Assembly: GCA_947643715.1 (NCBI GenBank)
Contig: CANRXB010000008.1
Coordinates: forward strand, 1 to 64,000
Length of the DNA: 64,000 bases
Direction: 5' to 3'
DNA from: an uncultured bacterium
Lineage (GTDB): Bacteria; Bacillota; Clostridia; Oscillospirales; Oscillospiraceae
How positions within the stretch are numbered: the first letter of the stretch is position 1; the number at the start of each line of letters is the position of its first letter. The translations under genes were made by a program, and so were the position numbers. The notes under the pieces are model-generated. The model was not told the DNA's origin and ran no database searches. It saw only the letters and a list, made by a program, of their open reading frames with translations. Positions 37,470 to 64,000 of the stretch are shown here, piece by piece.

Positions 37470-37716
37470 TCTTTGCCCCACCTGTCTCGATGGACCTGGC
37501 GGCGTCGGCCGCCTTTCCATACCAGCGCTTTCGGGCGCGAGTCGACGGGCCGCGCGCTACTCCATCACAATAGTGCGCGGCACTGAAAAAAAGGAGGAAG
37601 AACCACCGCTTCGGCTTGCGGTGCGGCAGTGTGGAGACCTGTCGCAAGGTCCCGGGGACCCAGCGCCCCGGGGCGAGGTGGAGATGGCGGAGGCCGCTCC
37701 ATCAAAGCCGGGTACT

Positions 37717-38904
<1,188 letters not shown>

Positions 38905-55577: not shown

Positions 55578-56684
55578 TTAGTATCCCTTATTTGAGATAA
55601 GGCGCCTAATCATCGGGTTAGCTTGTCGGTCAGCCAAACGGTGATCTTCGGAGTCTGAGAGATAGGTCTTAATGTATGAATAAATCCCTTTGGTAATCTT
55701 GCAGGTTGAACCGCCGTTTTCGGTAATTCCGCCCTCGTTTAACGCCACATTGTTGCAACCACCAGCACAGAAAGGAAACACTTCACAGTTTTGGCATTTG
55801 TATCGCCGTTCGATTGCGCCCTCAAGAAGGCGGCGAAAACCATCGGATTGGAACGCATCGGATAATTTGTCGTAATCCCAAATGCTCCCCAGGCCAAACT
55901 CATCCGGAAAGTATCGATTACATGGAACAATGCTTCCATCATATCTTATGCCTAACCACTTGCCAAGACATGACGTATATTTACAAACACTCTTTTTCCC
56001 AAAAATGATGAATTTAAGGATTCTTTCAAAGTAGTCCACATGGACGTTGCATTTTGCATCTGCAATCCAGTAATCAAAGAATTCTTGTAGCCGCTGAATT
56101 GTATGTGATGCATCCAGAGCCAATTCAGAATCATTCACTGCTGTAGTGTGAACATAGGGGTTGATACTATAATTGGCGTTTAGACGTTTAAATAATTCAT
56201 AACTTTCAATGAGAGTGTCCACATTTTTTCGGGACAAAACCATGATGAAACCGCAGGCTTTCCCGCGGCTCAGAAGTTTTTCCCGTCCAGCTAATATCCT
56301 TTCGGAGTCTCCTCTTAAATACTCATTGTTTATCCCATCAAATGAGCTCCCCACCCCGATATGGCTGCTACATAGAAAATCTGCCATATCATCGGTAAGA
56401 AGAGTCAAATTGCTCTGCATCCGATTTATTACATGAACACCAGGGTATGACGTTTGTAGCTGTAAGGCTTCTTCAAAAAAAGATTTACCCATGCAGAGAG
56501 GTTCTCCGCCATGCCAAATGATGAGCACATTTTGATAGCAGGCAAAAGTAATGTCATACAACCTACGTAGTGTCTCACCACTCATTCTTCCCTCTTTTTC
56601 GTGGAAACTACTATGGAAACAATAAACGCAATTCATGTTACAGCAATCCGTGGGCATTACCAAGAGATTAATTTTATTCTTCAT
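55578..56684 (-). CDS. Radical SAM/SPASM peptide maturase
   Basis: DCCNMNCVYCFHSSF (CxxxCxxC), WHGGEPLCMG, SPASM Cys pattern CKYTSC...GSIVPCNRYFPDEFGLGSIWD...CQNCEVFPFCAGGCNN. Confidence 0.93.
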   Translation of the reverse strand: MKNKINLLVMPTDCCNMNCVYCFHSSFHEKEGRMSGETLRRLYDITFACYQNVLIIWHGGEPLCMGKSFFEEALQLQTSYPGVHVINRMQSNLTLLTDDMADFLCSSHIGVGSSFDGINNEYLRGDSERILAGREKLLSRGKACGFIMVLSRKNVDTLIESYELFKRLNANYSINPYVHTTAVNDSELALDASHTIQRLQEFFDYWIADAKCNVHVDYFERILKFIIFGKKSVCKYTSCLGKWLGIRYDGSIVPCNRYFPDEFGLGSIWDYDKLSDAFQSDGFRRLLEGAIERRYKCQNCEVFPFCAGGCNNVALNEGGITENGGSTCKITKGIYSYIKTYLSDSEDHRLADRQANPMIRRLISNKGY

Positions 56685-56693
56685 TCCAGGGCC

Positions 56694-56999
56694 TCAGTAG
56701 TCATCGTGCGAATCCTCGTGCTTTGTATCGGTGTAATCATCGTAGTCATCATGGGTATCTTCGTGTTGAGTATCCGTATAGTCATCATGGTCTTCATGGT
56801 CGTCATACCAATCATCATCTGTGTGGGTATCACGGCAATACCAATCATCATCGTGATCATTACCTTCATCAGTATGGCGATTCCTGCAAGAATAGTCATC
56901 GTCATAATCGCTACCTCTATCTGTGTGATCATCATAACCGTAGGAAGATGAATACCCGGTTTGGCTCTCATACTCGGAAAACAGTTCATCGATGCTCAT
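56694..56999 (-). CDS. Candidate RiPP precursor: repetitive Asp/His/Tyr-rich peptide
   Basis: 101 aa MSIDELFSEYESQTGYSSSYGYDDHTDRGSDYDDDYSCRNRHTDEGNDHDDDWYCRDTHTDDDWYDDHEDHDDYTDTQHEDTHDDYDDYTDTKHEDSHDDY; 9 nt upstream of the radical SAM start, same strand. Confidence 0.8.
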   Translation of the reverse strand: MSIDELFSEYESQTGYSSSYGYDDHTDRGSDYDDDYSCRNRHTDEGNDHDDDWYCRDTHTDDDWYDDHEDHDDYTDTQHEDTHDDYDDYTDTKHEDSHDDY

Positions 57000-57222: not shown

Positions 57223-58653
57223 TCAGGTTATGTCCTTGGCCCGAAGCTCGGTGCCATCGAGCAGGAAGAAGTCGATGCTCCCGTCAGGGTGAACGAGGCA
57301 GCGTTCCAGCACCTTGTTCACGATGGCGGTGTCAAGCCCGGTCAGTGGCTCGGCATCGGCGGTGAGGTTAATGAGCTGCTCTGCGCGGTAGGCCAGGAGT
57401 GCGTTCTCATCGGCGCACTCGACTGTCCGCTCCCACTCCGGGAGGTACTTCTCCCTGTATGCCAGGAGATAGTTCCAGGCATCCACGAAGGCTTGATGTA
57501 AGGCCCGCTCCTCGATCTTCTCACAGCCGCAACCAGGCACTCCCTTCACCTCATAGTAACTGGAACACATCCAGACGATTTTCTTGGCGTTGAGGCGGGT
57601 CAGCGTCCGTCTGCGGAAAAGCCGACCACACTTTCCGCAGAACACCTTGGTGGAGAAGGGCTGCTCGTCCGTGTAGCGACCACTGGTTCGGAGCTGCCCA
57701 GCGTCCAGGTAAAGGCTCCGCCGCTCGATCTCCATCTGGACGATGTCCCACAAATCCTTGGGGATGATGGCCTCGTGGTTGTGCTTGACCCAAACCTGGT
57801 CAACCTCGCCATTATTCTTGACTGTCTTTTTACTGAGGTAGTCGGCGGTATAGGTCTTTTGGAGTAACGCATCGCCGGTGTACTTCTCATTGCGGAGGAT
57901 GCCCATGATGGTGGACACACACCACTTCGGCTCTCCCATGACTCCGGGAACTCCCTCCTCCCGGAGCCGCCGAGCAATCACCCCAGGGCCGTTGCCGTCC
58001 ATGAACTCAGCGTAGATGCGGCGAACAATAGCGGCCTGCTCCGGGTTTACCACCAGCCTCCCATCCTTGTCCTTGTCATAGCCGAGGAAGCGGTTGGTGT
58101 TGAGATGCAGCACCCCTTGGGTGAACAGGTAGCGGATACCCCAGGTGGTGTTCTCCGAGATGGAGCGGCTCTCGTCCTGGGCCAGCGAGGAGAGGATCGT
58201 GAAAAGCAACTCGCCGGAGCCGTCCAGGGTGTTGATTCCCTCCTTCTCAAACACCACCCCGATGCCCAGGTCTTTGAGCAGCCGTGTGTACTTTAGGCAA
58301 TCCTGGGTGTTCCGGGCGAACCGGCTAATCGACTTCGTAATGACCATGTCAATTTTTCCGGCCTTGCAGTCGGCAATCATGCGGTGGAACTCCTCTCGGT
58401 GGCGGGTGTTCGTGCCGGTAATGCCACGGTCGGGGTAGATGTCCACCAGTTCATACTCCGGGTGCCGCCGAGCATAGTCGAGGAAATACTCCTTCTGGTT
58501 TTCAAAACTCAGGAGCTGATCCTCTTGCTCAGTGGAAACGCGGCAGTAGGCAGCAAGGCGGATTCTGTGCTGTCGGGTGGCGGCACGGTTGCGGGTTTCT
58601 GGCCTCGCAGGGATGTGAAGGACTTCTCTGGTTGGTGTGCTTACTCTTGGCAT
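57223..58653 (-). CDS. Large serine recombinase with zinc-ribbon domain
   Basis: IRLAAYCRVSTEQEDQLLSFENQKEYFLDYARRHPEYELVDIYPDRGITGTN...FCGKCGRLFRRRTLTR...CSSYYEVKGVPGCGCEKI. Confidence 0.96.
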   Translation of the reverse strand: MPRVSTPTREVLHIPARPETRNRAATRQHRIRLAAYCRVSTEQEDQLLSFENQKEYFLDYARRHPEYELVDIYPDRGITGTNTRHREEFHRMIADCKAGKIDMVITKSISRFARNTQDCLKYTRLLKDLGIGVVFEKEGINTLDGSGELLFTILSSLAQDESRSISENTTWGIRYLFTQGVLHLNTNRFLGYDKDKDGRLVVNPEQAAIVRRIYAEFMDGNGPGVIARRLREEGVPGVMGEPKWCVSTIMGILRNEKYTGDALLQKTYTADYLSKKTVKNNGEVDQVWVKHNHEAIIPKDLWDIVQMEIERRSLYLDAGQLRTSGRYTDEQPFSTKVFCGKCGRLFRRRTLTRLNAKKIVWMCSSYYEVKGVPGCGCEKIEERALHQAFVDAWNYLLAYREKYLPEWERTVECADENALLAYRAEQLINLTADAEPLTGLDTAIVNKVLERCLVHPDGSIDFFLLDGTELRAKDIT

Positions 58654-59888
58654 AAATCATCTTCCTTTCCATATTGGCACTCGCTGAATGCCTCGTATTC
58701 GTCTTTGGGGAGGGCGGTGAACCGATGCATCCCGAACTCGTCATCGTAGGGGATAACGGTCACTGGCTCATCGAACTCCCCCCAAGCTAACGTAACCTCC
58801 GCTGGGAGCCAGATGCCCTTGCAGGCCGCAGCCGACACCTTGATGTTGGTCTTGCAAGCCCAATACTCCCGGCGACCGTTGCTCCATTTGTGGATAAGCC
58901 TCTCGCCGCAGTAAGGGCAGAACAGTTTCCCGGTCATGGGGTAGTGGGTGCGGCAGGAGCGGGGTTGAGAAGGAGGGGGAGGTAGAGGGTTGTCCAGGTG
59001 TTCTCTCCGCTGGGCAAGGACGGCCTGGACTTCATCCCAGAGATCGGGAGGGACGATGGCATCGTGGTTGTGCTTGATGTACCACTGGTCTTGCTCCCCA
59101 CGGTTCGGATGGCTGATGCGGCGGCTGTCTTTGACCGTTTTCTGCAAAACTAAATCGCCCTTGTACATCTCATTCCGAAGTACACGGGCGACACCAGTAT
59201 CATCCCATTTCCCACCTTTGGGGGCCGGGATATTATTTTTGTTGAGATAGGCTTTGATTTTCGAGGCCCACACTCCCCTCGCAGCGAGGTCGAACATCAG
59301 CCTCACCACTTGGGCCTCGTCCTCTTTGACACAGAGGTTTCCCGCCCTGTCAGCGCAGAAGCCGTAGGTGCGCTCCGAAGCGGCTGTGCGAATCTGCTGG
59401 GCGAATTTGTGCCGGTACATCATCCTTGCGCCCTGGCTGGCACTCTCGCTCTCAGCCTGGGCGAAGGCCCCCTTGATGGTGAGCATCAACTCCCCGGAGG
59501 CGGAGAGGGTGTCGATATTCTGTAACTCGAAGAACACCGAGATACCCAGGGCCTTCAACTCGCGTGTGGCATCCAGCAGGGTGTAGGTGTTTCTGGCAAA
59601 CCGAGAGATGCTCTTGACCAGCACCATGTCGAACTTCCCGCGCCGTGCATCTTGGAGCATCTGCTGAAAACCAGGGCGGTTTTCTTTATAGCCCGTTATC
59701 CCTTCGTCACTGTACACCCCAGCGAACTCCCAAGCAGGGTTATCGCTGATGAGCTGCTGGTAGTATGCGGTCTGGTTCACCAGTGAATCCTCCTGCTCCT
59801 CGGTAGCTGTGGACACGCGGGCGTAGGCACAAACTCGGAGCCGTTTGCCGGAATTTCGGTTTTTTCTGGGAATAATACGGATGCGCAT
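58641..59888 (-). CDS. Large serine recombinase, overlaps preceding one by 13 nt
   Basis: LRVCAYARVSTATEEQEDSLVNQTAYYQQLISDNPAWEFAGVYSDEGITGYKENRPGF...FCPYCGERLIHKWSNGRREYWACKT. Confidence 0.96.
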   Translation of the reverse strand: MRIRIIPRKNRNSGKRLRVCAYARVSTATEEQEDSLVNQTAYYQQLISDNPAWEFAGVYSDEGITGYKENRPGFQQMLQDARRGKFDMVLVKSISRFARNTYTLLDATRELKALGISVFFELQNIDTLSASGELMLTIKGAFAQAESESASQGARMMYRHKFAQQIRTAASERTYGFCADRAGNLCVKEDEAQVVRLMFDLAARGVWASKIKAYLNKNNIPAPKGGKWDDTGVARVLRNEMYKGDLVLQKTVKDSRRISHPNRGEQDQWYIKHNHDAIVPPDLWDEVQAVLAQRREHLDNPLPPPPSQPRSCRTHYPMTGKLFCPYCGERLIHKWSNGRREYWACKTNIKVSAAACKGIWLPAEVTLAWGEFDEPVTVIPYDDEFGMHRFTALPKDEYEAFSECQYGKEDDLCQE

Positions 59889-59986: not shown

Positions 59987-60020
59987 AAAAAAGGAAGGCC
60001 GGACTGATTTTGTCCGGCCC
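59987..60020 (-). terminator. Intrinsic terminator of the EEP-RT operon
   Basis: Minus strand GGGCCGGACAAAATCAGTCCGGCCTTCCTTTTTT just after the RT stop. Confidence 0.85.
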
Positions 60021-60037: not shown

Positions 60038-62113
60038 TTAAAGCTGGTACTTTTTGATGATGTAGGCCATGTGCTGCTGTAACTCGAAAACTGCATTGTC
60101 TGGTAACTTCTGTGATGTCAGGGCTTTGGGAATCTCCAGTTTTGAGCGGCCCAGCTCATCCCGGACCAGTTGGATTTTGCCCTTTTCAAAGTTGATGTAC
60201 TTGAGCGAATAGCCCTCGGTCAGCCATGCCTCCGCCATCATGTTGCAGTTCTGCCGTGGATACCACCAGTCCTTATTCTTCCTTGCGGATGCTGGCAGTG
60301 GTCTACCATCAATTTTTTCAATTTCCTTGAATGTCAGAGTTACCGAGGCAGCAGTACAGGCAGCAAAATACTGCTTCAGTTTAATATGCTTCCAGTTCTC
60401 CGGGATTTCCTTCTTTTGCCTCGTCCCCTTTGGCGGAGCCGCCTCGATTTCTCCCAGAGCTGCCATAACGTCATAGGGTGTCATGGCTCCAATATCCTCC
60501 ATCGTCCTATAAACCTCAAAACTGCTCTGCTCACAGATTTTGTGGATATAAGCGGAGTTTTTTATCGATGGAGGCCGGGAGAGGTCTATCTGCACCACCG
60601 TGCGGGGTTGGTCTACCAAAATCGGGCGACCGCAGTAGAAACAGATGCCACCCTGCCGCTCCCACACGGCCCGATACTTCCCATTAACATTCCTGATATC
60701 GCTGGCATGGGTGCGGTGGTCAATGTAGTCCGTATCAAGGAATGGATTTGCATTTGTTTTGATTTTTGCGTGTTCCAGAAGCAGGGTGTCCGCCAGCCGG
60801 ATGACACGGACGCTTTTATCTTCCGGCAAAGCATAGCAGTGGCGACCATCTGCCTCTTTGTACCAGTATCTGTCGATTACCTTTTTTTTCGCCAGCTTGG
60901 GGTGTTTAGCGAAAGCGGCCTCAAGCAGAGCGGCTTGCACGGCGGCATCGACCCGTTTGAATGCGTCTCGTGCATCGCTGTAACGATGGTAATTTGCCCA
61001 GCCACGCAGTTTTTGATTGACCAGAATGATAAGGTCACGCTGGGACTTCCGAAAGGTCTGAATCGTCTCTTTCAAGTTGGTGATGATCCTTTGGACGGCC
61101 CGCTCTGAAGGGTAAGAATAGATAAAGCCGTTCTTCTTGATGAACGTCTGCCCAAGGAAATCAAAGCCCTCGTCAACAGTGCGGATGTGTGTTTTCTCCT
61201 TGGAGAGTGTCAGGCCCCGTTCAGCAAGAAAGCTGGAGAGCAATTCGATGACCCTTTCCGCATCAGTACGGGTGCGTACCGTTATGAGGATATCATCCGC
61301 AAACCTAATCAGATTTCCGTTTGCAAAGTCATCTGGGTATTCTGTTCCAAACAGCCCGCGGTAGATGTATTTTTGCAGACCATCCAGCACATAATTCCCC
61401 AGATATGGGGATAGGTTGGCTCCCTCAGAGATACCTTCGCCCTCTGCTGGGAACAGCTCTCCGGCAAACACTATCCCAACGGAGAGCAGCTCCCGCAGCA
61501 CCTTCTTGTCCATCGGAACATTTTCTAAGAGCCAAGAATGGTGAATATGCGAAAAGTATGCCTTGATGTCCCCGCAGACCACCACGCTCGGCGCATTGTT
61601 TCCTTTGAGGCTCTCCAGCACATAGGCTTGGGCATCTTGCGTTGAGCGGCCCGGACGGAAAGCAAAGGACTTCCTCTCTGCCTGGGCCTCTGCCACGGGG
61701 ATGAAGGAGTATCCATAGAGGACATTAATGGCCCGGTCAAAGTAGGTCGGTATCCCGGACTTGCGCTCCTTGCCCGTGTTCTTCGATATGATGTTGATCT
61801 GGCGCAAAGGCTGTGCATGGTAGTCCTTTGAGGTCAGGCGCATTGCCGCCCTCATCATCTGGCCTGGGGTGCGCCATCGAACACCGTCCACCCCAGGGCC
61901 GGAGCCTGAGTTGGCAACGTGCCGGACAGCGAGGCACTTGATGTCCATGTCTCTGACGATGCGTTTTTGTATGTCGCCCACGGCTTTACTGTCCTTGCGA
62001 AAAGCCGCCTTTGTCAACTCCCCCTGCCAGCGTCTCAGCTTTTCCTCGGCAGCGGGCCAGTCGATATCGTCCCACAGTTTTCCCAACTGCTCATCTGTGA
62101 ATTCAATGCCCAT
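60038..62113 (-). CDS. Group-II-intron-like reverse transcriptase with maturase/thumb, degenerate HNH-like zinc finger and extra C-terminal domain
   Basis: RT motifs SGPGVDGVRW, GIPTYFDRAINVLYGYSFIPVAEAQAERKSFAFRPGRSTQDA, CGDIKAYFSHIHHSWLL, EGISEGANLSPYLGNYVLDGL, NLIRFADDILI, LSKEKTHI..GFDFLGQTF, QKLRGWANYHR; HNH-like RQGGICFYCGRPIL. Confidence 0.95.
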   Translation of the reverse strand: MGIEFTDEQLGKLWDDIDWPAAEEKLRRWQGELTKAAFRKDSKAVGDIQKRIVRDMDIKCLAVRHVANSGSGPGVDGVRWRTPGQMMRAAMRLTSKDYHAQPLRQINIISKNTGKERKSGIPTYFDRAINVLYGYSFIPVAEAQAERKSFAFRPGRSTQDAQAYVLESLKGNNAPSVVVCGDIKAYFSHIHHSWLLENVPMDKKVLRELLSVGIVFAGELFPAEGEGISEGANLSPYLGNYVLDGLQKYIYRGLFGTEYPDDFANGNLIRFADDILITVRTRTDAERVIELLSSFLAERGLTLSKEKTHIRTVDEGFDFLGQTFIKKNGFIYSYPSERAVQRIITNLKETIQTFRKSQRDLIILVNQKLRGWANYHRYSDARDAFKRVDAAVQAALLEAAFAKHPKLAKKKVIDRYWYKEADGRHCYALPEDKSVRVIRLADTLLLEHAKIKTNANPFLDTDYIDHRTHASDIRNVNGKYRAVWERQGGICFYCGRPILVDQPRTVVQIDLSRPPSIKNSAYIHKICEQSSFEVYRTMEDIGAMTPYDVMAALGEIEAAPPKGTRQKKEIPENWKHIKLKQYFAACTAASVTLTFKEIEKIDGRPLPASARKNKDWWYPRQNCNMMAEAWLTEGYSLKYINFEKGKIQLVRDELGRSKLEIPKALTSQKLPDNAVFELQQHMAYIIKKYQL

Positions 62114-62868
62114 TATAGGTCAAGCTCCATCAGAATTGGGCAGTGGTCGGAGCCAAGAATGTCCGTCAGGTGTGCTACATCGACCAGCCGCGAGACAAGC
62201 CCATCTGAGAGGAAGAAGTAGTCGAGCCGCCAGCCGCGATTCTGCTCCCGTTTTTTCAGTCGGTTGCTCCACCAGGTGTAAGCCCCTTCCCTGTCAGGGT
62301 AAAGGTAACGAAAGGCATCGGTGAAACCGCTCTCCATCAGGGTTTCGAGGTTAGACCGCTCATCAGACGCATATCCCATCTGCGCCCAATACTGCCGAAG
62401 ATTTTCTGGGTAAATGTCAATGTCCGACATAGCCACATTGAAGTCTCCACAGGCGACAACAGGCTTTTCCTCCGCCAGACTGCACACATACCCCCTGAAC
62501 GCTTCATCCCATTCGGTGCGGAACTGGTGCCGTTGCAGATTCTTTTGCGAATTTGGTGCGTAGGCGTTCACAATAAATAGTTTAGGAAATTCCAGAGTGA
62601 CCACTCGCCCTTCGCAGTCAAGGGCTTCCACGCCGAGACCCCTAATCTCACAGATTGGGGCTTTGCGGGTCATGGTGAGGGTACCAGAGTAGCCATCCCT
62701 CTCGCTGGGATTCCAGAAGTGCTGATACCCAGCCATGACCTGCGTTTGCTGCTTTGTTCTGATCTCCTGGCAACACACCACATCAGCTCCGAGAGCCTCG
62801 ATAGCTTGAAATGAGTTGTGCTTCACACAGGACAACAGGCCGTTCAAATTCCAAGAAATGATTTTCAT
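62113..62868 (-). CDS. Exonuclease III / AP-endonuclease (EEP) family nuclease
   Basis: MKIISWNLNGLLSCVKHNSFQAIEALGADVVCCQEIRT...VNAYAPNSQ...VVACGDFNVA...TWWSNR...RLDYFFLSD...LGSDHCPILMELDL; full catalytic set; true start 62868 with GGAGGT RBS. 1-nt overlap (TAATG) with RT start. Confidence 0.95.
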   Translation of the reverse strand: MKIISWNLNGLLSCVKHNSFQAIEALGADVVCCQEIRTKQQTQVMAGYQHFWNPSERDGYSGTLTMTRKAPICEIRGLGVEALDCEGRVVTLEFPKLFIVNAYAPNSQKNLQRHQFRTEWDEAFRGYVCSLAEEKPVVACGDFNVAMSDIDIYPENLRQYWAQMGYASDERSNLETLMESGFTDAFRYLYPDREGAYTWWSNRLKKREQNRGWRLDYFFLSDGLVSRLVDVAHLTDILGSDHCPILMELDL

Positions 62869-62921: not shown

Positions 62922-62954
62922 CACCCCGCTGGCCTTGATGAGACCAGCGGGGTG
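62922..62954 (-). terminator. Hairpin between endolysin and EEP-RT operon
   Basis: caccccgctgg-ccttgatgaga-ccagcggggtg perfect 11-bp stem. Confidence 0.6.
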
Positions 62955-62967
62955 TAGACACGACGGC

Positions 62968-64000
62968 TTAGATTTTCTGTGCGTAGTCGAGTGCAATCCA
63001 GCCTGCGCCGGACTTCAGCCTACCCCAACCCTTGGCAGAGCCAGGGCCGTTCTTGACCTCGGTGATGGTGAACACCCCGGCCCCGGTGAACTTCCCGGTC
63101 ATGGCGGTGTCGGTGCCAGGGCCAGTGCGAATACGGAGGTCGGTGGCAGTGACCCTCACCTTGAAGGGAACGGCGGCAGGAGCCGGAGAAGCTCCGCCAG
63201 CGGTGGCGAGGATAGCCTTGAGGATGGTGACGATCTTCGCCCCGTATCCCGCGCCGGTGGCCCAGCCCTTGCCCTGGGGATTCTCTTTCTGGCCCAGCCA
63301 CTCCACCACCTCGGCGCAGCCCCGCGCCACATACTTGAACCGGGGGTCGATACACTCGTTCTTCAGCGGCTCGGTGGAGGCGTAGGCTTTGAGGTGCTGC
63401 ACCTGCGCCCGGATGCCAAGCTGGGGCGTGTCGAAGGAGTTACCTTTCAGCCCATTGGCGGTGACGCCCATGCCGCAGAAGTTGTTCTGCTCCAGCGTGA
63501 CGGCGGAGCCAGCGAAACCGAAGTTCCCGGTTTCCAGACAGGACTGCGCAAAAGCGATGTCGCCCCGCACACCCTCCGCTGCCCCCTCGGACAGATAGAG
63601 CGGCACCATGTCCAGAACGTTCTGGGCGACCTTCGGATTTTTGGCCTTGATGTAGGCTTTCATCTGCTCCGCAGTAGCCACCGCCGCACCCATGATCTTC
63701 GTGCCGGACACACCGCCGGGGGCAGCGGCCCCACCGCCCATTGCGGCCTTGACCGCCTTGCGGAAGGTGTCCATGGTGTAGGGCAGGCCGAGCTGCGTCC
63801 AGAGATGCTCCGGGTCACCGTGGTTGGAGGCGATGCCCCGCTTGCAGCCCTCCTTGTGGCTGACGATGACCCCATCCCCCAGCGGGTCGAGGGAGAACTT
63901 CCGGCTGAGCATGGCGAACAGCTCCACCGCCGCCTGATAGGTGCGCTTGGCAACGGCCTGGGCGGTGGCAAGGTCAGAGCAGGTGAAAGTGGCCCCACCC
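62968..64000 (-). CDS. Phage-type endolysin: N-terminal amidase-like, central glucosaminidase-like, C-terminal SH3b; truncated at window end
   Basis: VSHKEGCKRGIASNHGDPEHLWTQLGLPYTMDTFRKAVKAAM (phage amidase C-terminus); DIAFAQSCLETGNFGFAGSAVTLEQNNFCGMG; VTATDLRIRTGPGTDTAMTGKFTGAGVFTITEVKN SH3b. Frame stays open to base 64000. Confidence 0.85.
   Translation of the reverse strand, partial: GGATFTCSDLATAQAVAKRTYQAAVELFAMLSRKFSLDPLGDGVIVSHKEGCKRGIASNHGDPEHLWTQLGLPYTMDTFRKAVKAAMGGGAAAPGGVSGTKIMGAAVATAEQMKAYIKAKNPKVAQNVLDMVPLYLSEGAAEGVRGDIAFAQSCLETGNFGFAGSAVTLEQNNFCGMGVTANGLKGNSFDTPQLGIRAQVQHLKAYASTEPLKNECIDPRFKYVARGCAEVVEWLGQKENPQGKGWATGAGYGAKIVTILKAILATAGGASPAPAAVPFKVRVTATDLRIRTGPGTDTAMTGKFTGAGVFTITEVKNGPGSAKGWGRLKSGAGWIALDYAQKI

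Follow-up and report, generated by a model that had tools for sequence, protein, structure and literature searches.

Organization of the locus

Two open reading frames lie on the reverse strand of the window, the 64,000-nucleotide stretch that was analyzed from a contig of an uncultured member of the Oscillospiraceae. They encode an EEP nuclease and a reverse transcriptase (RT), and the features of the region are as follows.

57223..59888, reverse strand: two large serine recombinases, the prophage integrases (Pfam Resolvase, Recombinase and Zn_ribbon_recom)
59996..60020, reverse strand: intrinsic-terminator-like hairpin 3' of the RT gene (9-bp stem with 7 G-C pairs, T tail)
60038..62113, reverse strand: RT of group II intron descent, 691 aa (open reading frame and domain models)
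60188..60382, reverse strand: DUF7662 domain, RT residues 578-642 (Pfam PF24698, 32.1 bits against a cut-off of 26)
60533..60643, reverse strand: HNH-derived zinc region, CFYC...HKIC (zinc ligands present, catalytic His-His absent)
60863..61096, reverse strand: GIIM maturase/thumb domain, RT residues 340-417 (Pfam PF08388)
61142..61789, reverse strand: RT palm and fingers, residues 109-324 (Pfam PF00078; FADD at 61292-61303)
61835..62074, reverse strand: RVT_N, the N-terminal RT domain, residues 14-93 (Pfam PF13655)
62113..62868, reverse strand: EEP nuclease of the ExoIII/ExoA type, 251 aa (TIGR00633, 243.7 bits, and catalytic residues)
62968..63999, reverse strand: prophage endolysin with glucosaminidase and SH3 domain matches, extending past the window end

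The initial annotation had described both reading frames at 60038-62868 as intact and joined by a TAATG stop/start overlap, with FADD at the RT active site and a group II-type thumb. All of these features are present: FADD occupies residues 271-274, and the thumb corresponds to the GIIM domain. The DUF7662 domain is an additional feature absent from that description. The EEP gene starts with the ATG at 62868, which has GGAGG just upstream. The proposed transcription signals held in part. The downstream terminator at 60020-59996 was recovered by a terminator scan, but the upstream hairpin at about 62922-62954 lacks a T-run. Similarly, TATAAT can be read at a 17-nt spacing from a -35 element, but this element, TTGCGT, matches at only 3 of 6 positions, and the promoter scan was empty. 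The intergenic space next to the pair measures 99 bp on the upstream side and 149 bp on the downstream side, with hairpins in both.

The pair lies within a prophage, with the endolysin on one side and the two serine integrases on the other; the tail genes of this prophage are found past the window. The setting of L012/L013 resembles that of the pair. The same prophage, past the window end, contains a 209-aa gene without a Pfam match, located between the tape measure and tail assembly genes (L049 8433-9062, contig about 72433-73062). Just outside the integrases, a radical SAM/SPASM protein (55578-56684, reverse strand) lies beside a 101-aa repetitive peptide rich in Asp, His and Tyr (56694-56999, reverse strand), and the two look like a RiPP maturase and its putative precursor. 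Elsewhere in the window, a malK-I cis-regulatory RNA was matched at 37542-37722 on the forward strand (Rfam RF03069, 154 bits).

Conservation of the nuclease-RT pairing

The pairing of EEP and RT is real and old. Relatives were defined as loci sharing the C-terminal part of the RT and were drawn from bacterial genomes and viral contigs. As the initial annotation had suggested, the gene neighborhoods of these homologues were compared, and the EEP was conserved in every one of the 14 distinct loci whose flanks were long enough to show it. It is an adjacent gene in six of them (the window, L030, L011, L012, L042 and L107) and is fused in frame in the other eight (L002, L025, L029, L014, L015, L016, L108 and L111), giving proteins of about 940-970 aa. 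Because the pairing recurs in every one of these loci, a chance pairing is excluded, and the eight fusions likewise rule out chance neighbors. Outside the 14, three further loci are consistent with the pairing: a frameshifted fusion (L003), a near-copy of L016 (L017), and a locus in which an IS-like insertion interrupts the nuclease gene (L109). Another three (L028, L031 and L038) were left out because the contig ended or broke before the possible position of the nuclease.

Seventeen loci of ordinary group II RTs, some with short flanks, were also inspected, and all lacked an EEP neighbor. When the search of viral contigs was reversed and started from the EEP, 14 loci were recovered; the best-scoring six were linked to an RT and the rest lacked one. 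The fused and split forms interleave on the RT tree, with at least two changes of state. Additionally, distances among the EEPs track those among the RTs (Mantel r 0.77, 0 of 5000 permutations), a correlation to which close pairs contribute. Between the fused proteins of L002 and L025, dN/dS is 0.16 for the nuclease, 0.13 for the RT, 0.16 for the thumb, 0.23 for the HNH-like region and 0.13 for DUF7662; every domain is, by this measure, under purifying selection.

The nuclease

In a profile search, the EEP of the window scored 243.7 bits to TIGR00633 (xth), for which the cut-off is 99. An alignment of 10 homologues revealed that N7, E35, Y103, D142, N144, D216, D241 and H242 are invariant, and these correspond to the ExoIII/APE1 catalytic positions. 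The EEP thus carries the full catalytic set of ExoA/ExoIII enzymes such as B. subtilis ExoA (5cfe), the H. pylori enzyme (8igi) and human APE1. Its similarity is 332 bits to the ExoA type versus 57 bits to the LINE-1 endonuclease, and in the predicted model of the fused L002 protein, the EEP part superimposes on B. subtilis ExoA with a TM of 0.84.

The linked EEP is a dedicated second copy rather than the host's own xth. That identity was ruled out because a separate ExoA is encoded in the window's genome and in all five of the other host genomes checked. Phylogenetically, 12 of 14 linked EEPs form a clade apart from the housekeeping ExoAs (support 91/88). The exceptions are the EEP of L042, which groups among the housekeeping ExoAs, and that of L014, whose placement is weak; the EEP partner may thus have arisen more than once.

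Descent of the reverse transcriptase

The EEP-paired RTs fall in a single clade (support 100/100) inside the group II intron RTs; the stem leading to it is long, at 0.91 changes per site. The window RT matches RVT_1 and GIIM above their cut-offs, and its nearest solved protein is a group IIB maturase (6me0, E 4.6e-85). The L002 fused model (mean pLDDT 74) aligns with group II RT structures at TM 0.86-0.89. The active site is FADD or YADD in all members. Despite this descent, the intron RNA is gone. A ribozyme in the immediate flanks, which the initial annotation had named as the sign of an ordinary intron, was looked for with Rfam, and no group II RNA was matched in any EEP-RT locus scanned, while the control recovered it in 9 of 9 ordinary relatives. 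The sister introns L022 and L036 still possess theirs. Consequently, little can be said for an ordinary mobile group II intron with a missed ribozyme and an unrelated nuclease gene nearby: its RT, thumb and HNH-derived region are all of the group II type, but given the absent intron RNA and a score of 244 bits (244.4) to the NCBI equivalog TIGR04416, below the cut-off of 300, this identity was rejected as extremely improbable.

The En+ group II lineages from which the RT descends carry a catalytic HNH endonuclease. In EEP-RT, the catalytic His-His of the HNH region is missing in 12 of 12 members aligned, but the zinc ligands are kept. The same His-His is also degenerate in some ordinary Clostridial introns, sister introns among them, so the gain of the EEP need not have replaced the HNH, and the idea that this gain caused the HNH loss is weakened. 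A Foldseek search of the C-terminal part returned weak HNH and winged-helix matches only (E >= 0.04). By these comparisons, the RT is demonstrably the descendant of a group II intron protein that lost its ribozyme and whose HNH catalytic histidines are gone.

The DUF7662 domain also occurs in other proteins. It stands nearly alone in L058 (84 aa), lies behind an apparent GIY-YIG domain in L059 (read by eye), and is found in a plasmid hit (H92) whose protein is annotated with an HNH signature. From these settings, DUF7662 could be a module with which nucleases bind DNA.

Hosts and genetic context

The EEP-RT loci are carried by mobile elements of gut bacteria, namely prophages, conjugative elements and large replicons of the Oscillospirales. 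The gene is accessory, with a prevalence of about 1% of the sampled genomes in the order, and no full-length members were found in samples of the wider class or phylum. One genome, G1643 (7% contamination), contains four distinct EEP-RT loci in differing contexts (L107, L108, L109 and L111).

Several neighbors are associated with defence. BREX genes and a relaxase occur in the vicinity of L029, and a helicase and a BrxP-like gene in that of L014. A type I methylase is close to L011. L111 precedes a type IIG restriction gene, and L012 adjoins an FRG-domain gene. YpsA/SLOG genes are close to L002, L011, L015, L016, L108 and L111. Other neighbors could relate to repair. Y-family polymerases occur near L014, L029 and L109, the one at L029 read by eye, and ligase-like or clamp-like genes, also read by eye, occur in the large replicons (L015-L017, L030, L003 and L038). 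Because elements of this kind often carry defence genes in any case, the neighbors are weak evidence of purpose. An NYN-domain protein of about 480-500 aa adjoins the fused genes of L002 (10251-11687) and L111 (10024-11538) and is a possible extra partner.

Relation to known systems

Individual properties of EEP-RT are found in several known proteins. The protein of the group IIB intron T.el4h (6me0, 8fli) can be aligned through the RT, thumb and C-terminal region over about 500 aa. In contrast, EEP-RT is without the intron RNA and the HNH His-His and has acquired an EEP partner and DUF7662. RT-Cas1 of CRISPR likewise combines, in one fusion, a group II-related RT and an enzyme that acts on DNA; the partner in EEP-RT, however, is an AP-endonuclease-type nuclease, and no cas genes were seen nearby.

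The closest precedent in kind is the domesticated G2L4 RT. In Pseudomonas aeruginosa, this group II-like enzyme functions in double-strand-break end joining, and it is described without a nuclease partner (PMC12337344). Like EEP-RT, it is free-standing, domesticated and without intron RNA. The two differ in the active site, which is YIDD in G2L4 (PMC12337344, PMC4244168) and FADD or YADD in EEP-RT, and EEP-RT additionally possesses the nuclease partner, the HNH-derived region and DUF7662 and resides on mobile elements.

LINE-1 ORF2p also joins an N-terminal APE-fold endonuclease to an RT. The fusion in eight loci follows the arrangement of APE-type LINEs, whereas the window has a separate overlapping gene. 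Moreover, unlike in LINE-1, the RT is of group II intron descent and the EEP is of the ExoA type, and no target-site duplication, UTR or tail was found. As both halves are of bacterial descent, EEP-RT may act like a LINE protein without being one.

Proposed function and alternatives

The conserved pairing and fusion, the group II descent, the loss of the RNA and of the HNH histidines, the intact catalytic residues of EEP and RT, and the selection on them are all established at the level of sequence comparison. The reading that we consider somewhat probable is that of a domesticated, ribozyme-less group II intron RT that works with a dedicated ExoA/APE1-type endonuclease, either separate or fused. 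The EEP would either cut DNA at abasic sites, lesions or positions marked in some other way, or trim a blocked 3' end, leaving a 3'-OH. The tethered RT would then extend this 3'-OH, copying either DNA or RNA, and the zinc region and DUF7662 would keep the DNA in place. In the window, the EEP would be a separate, co-translated subunit, and in the relatives with fusions, a single polypeptide would perform both steps. The hand-over from nick to RT is inferred from the fusion, the co-inheritance and the intact active sites. Phages and conjugative elements may carry such a pair as an accessory module that protects genomes.

The initial annotation had suggested that the two genes could be a nick-and-prime, repair or anti-phage system. 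With the EEP neighbor conserved and the ribozyme absent, nick-and-prime coupling remains a plausible reading of what seems to be an undescribed gene pair. Nothing, however, favors autonomous target-primed retrotransposition: no target-site duplication or conserved UTR was found, and neither the RT nor the EEP is of the LINE type. In its boldest form, EEP-RT would be a new prokaryotic class in which an element-borne AP-endonuclease cut primes DNA or cDNA synthesis, either to counter competing phages or, with lower likelihood, to transpose itself, and which evolved from group II introns in parallel to the eukaryotic APE-type LINEs. This form is possible but less likely than not.

With regard to purpose, both defence and repair fit the sequence evidence. 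Anti-phage defence is a serious possibility whose likelihood approaches even. Repair of lesions or breaks is a reasonable possibility, although doubtful. A purpose other than these or self-mobility is unlikely, and self-mobility itself is distinctly unlikely.

If repair rather than defence were the role, the EEP would open or clean ends and the RT would fill or join them, as in the microhomology-mediated end joining of G2L4. This is conceivable, if far from assured. The EEP is of the AP-endonuclease type with all catalytic residues present, group II-like RTs are able to function in the repair of double-strand breaks (PMC12337344), and the polymerase, ligase-like and clamp-like neighbors would suit such a role. 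The hosts, however, already possess ExoA, the gene is rare and accessory, and several loci have defence genes as direct neighbors.

An autonomous bacterial LINE-like retrotransposon, in which the EEP nicks the target and the RT copies its own mRNA there, is improbable. The order of APE-type nuclease and RT is that of LINE-1 ORF2p (PMC12503042), and in two pairs of relatives (L002/L025 and window/L030) the coding unit alone is shared within unrelated flanks, indicating that the unit has moved. Nevertheless, a common-substring test of 11 loci detected no target-site duplication above shuffled flanks, and no conserved UTR or tail was found at EEP-RT loci. Many copies are another mark of APE-type LINEs, beside target-site duplications and a 3' tail. 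At EEP-RT, usually one copy is present per genome, and although G584 and G1643 (the latter with 7% contamination) contain several, the incomplete copies in G584 have degenerated and their interiors have been replaced. The short copies in G584 were considered as LINE-like 5' truncations and rejected, as L026 retains the beginning of the EEP and the end of the RT, separated by unrelated genes. Further, L015 and L016 occupy the same place in one element type at saturated dS, and the components themselves derive from group II introns and from the ExoA type (332 bits, against 57 to the LINE-1 endonuclease). Overall, autonomous LINE-like mobility of EEP-RT is not supported.

Less probable still is a DRT- or retron-like defence system in which a dedicated non-coding RNA is the template and the EEP is the effector nuclease. 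Defence genes adjoin EEP-RT loci, and RT-based defence systems are known (PMC12489045, PMC11100668). Retrons, DRT2, DRT3 and DRT9 have a non-coding RNA next to the RT. Yet the 99 and 149 bp around the window pair leave little space and bear hairpins. No conserved non-coding flank was found between the relatives of the pairs L002/L025 and window/L030; their flanks are unrelated and therefore share no conserved RNA. The RT is also of the wrong class, scoring at most 76 bits to DRT-class models and 244 to the group II model, and this candidate was rejected.

Significance

No description of EEP-RT was found in the openly accessible literature searched, including a large RT survey that tabulates neighboring domains (PMC8934634). 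The initial annotation likewise knew of no described system with this gene pair, and its novelty is provisional. If EEP-RT is a defence or repair system, it would represent a new type of partner among the domesticated RTs.

The replacement of ribozyme-guided insertion by a protein endonuclease is the step usually invoked in the path from group II introns to eukaryotic LINEs. Bacteria display that LINE-like endpoint, reached independently: a ribozyme-less group II RT with a disabled HNH and a joined APE-type nuclease. If nick-primed synthesis proves true, EEP-RT would provide a tractable bacterial model of target-primed synthesis and possibly a compact nick-and-extend enzyme in a single polypeptide.
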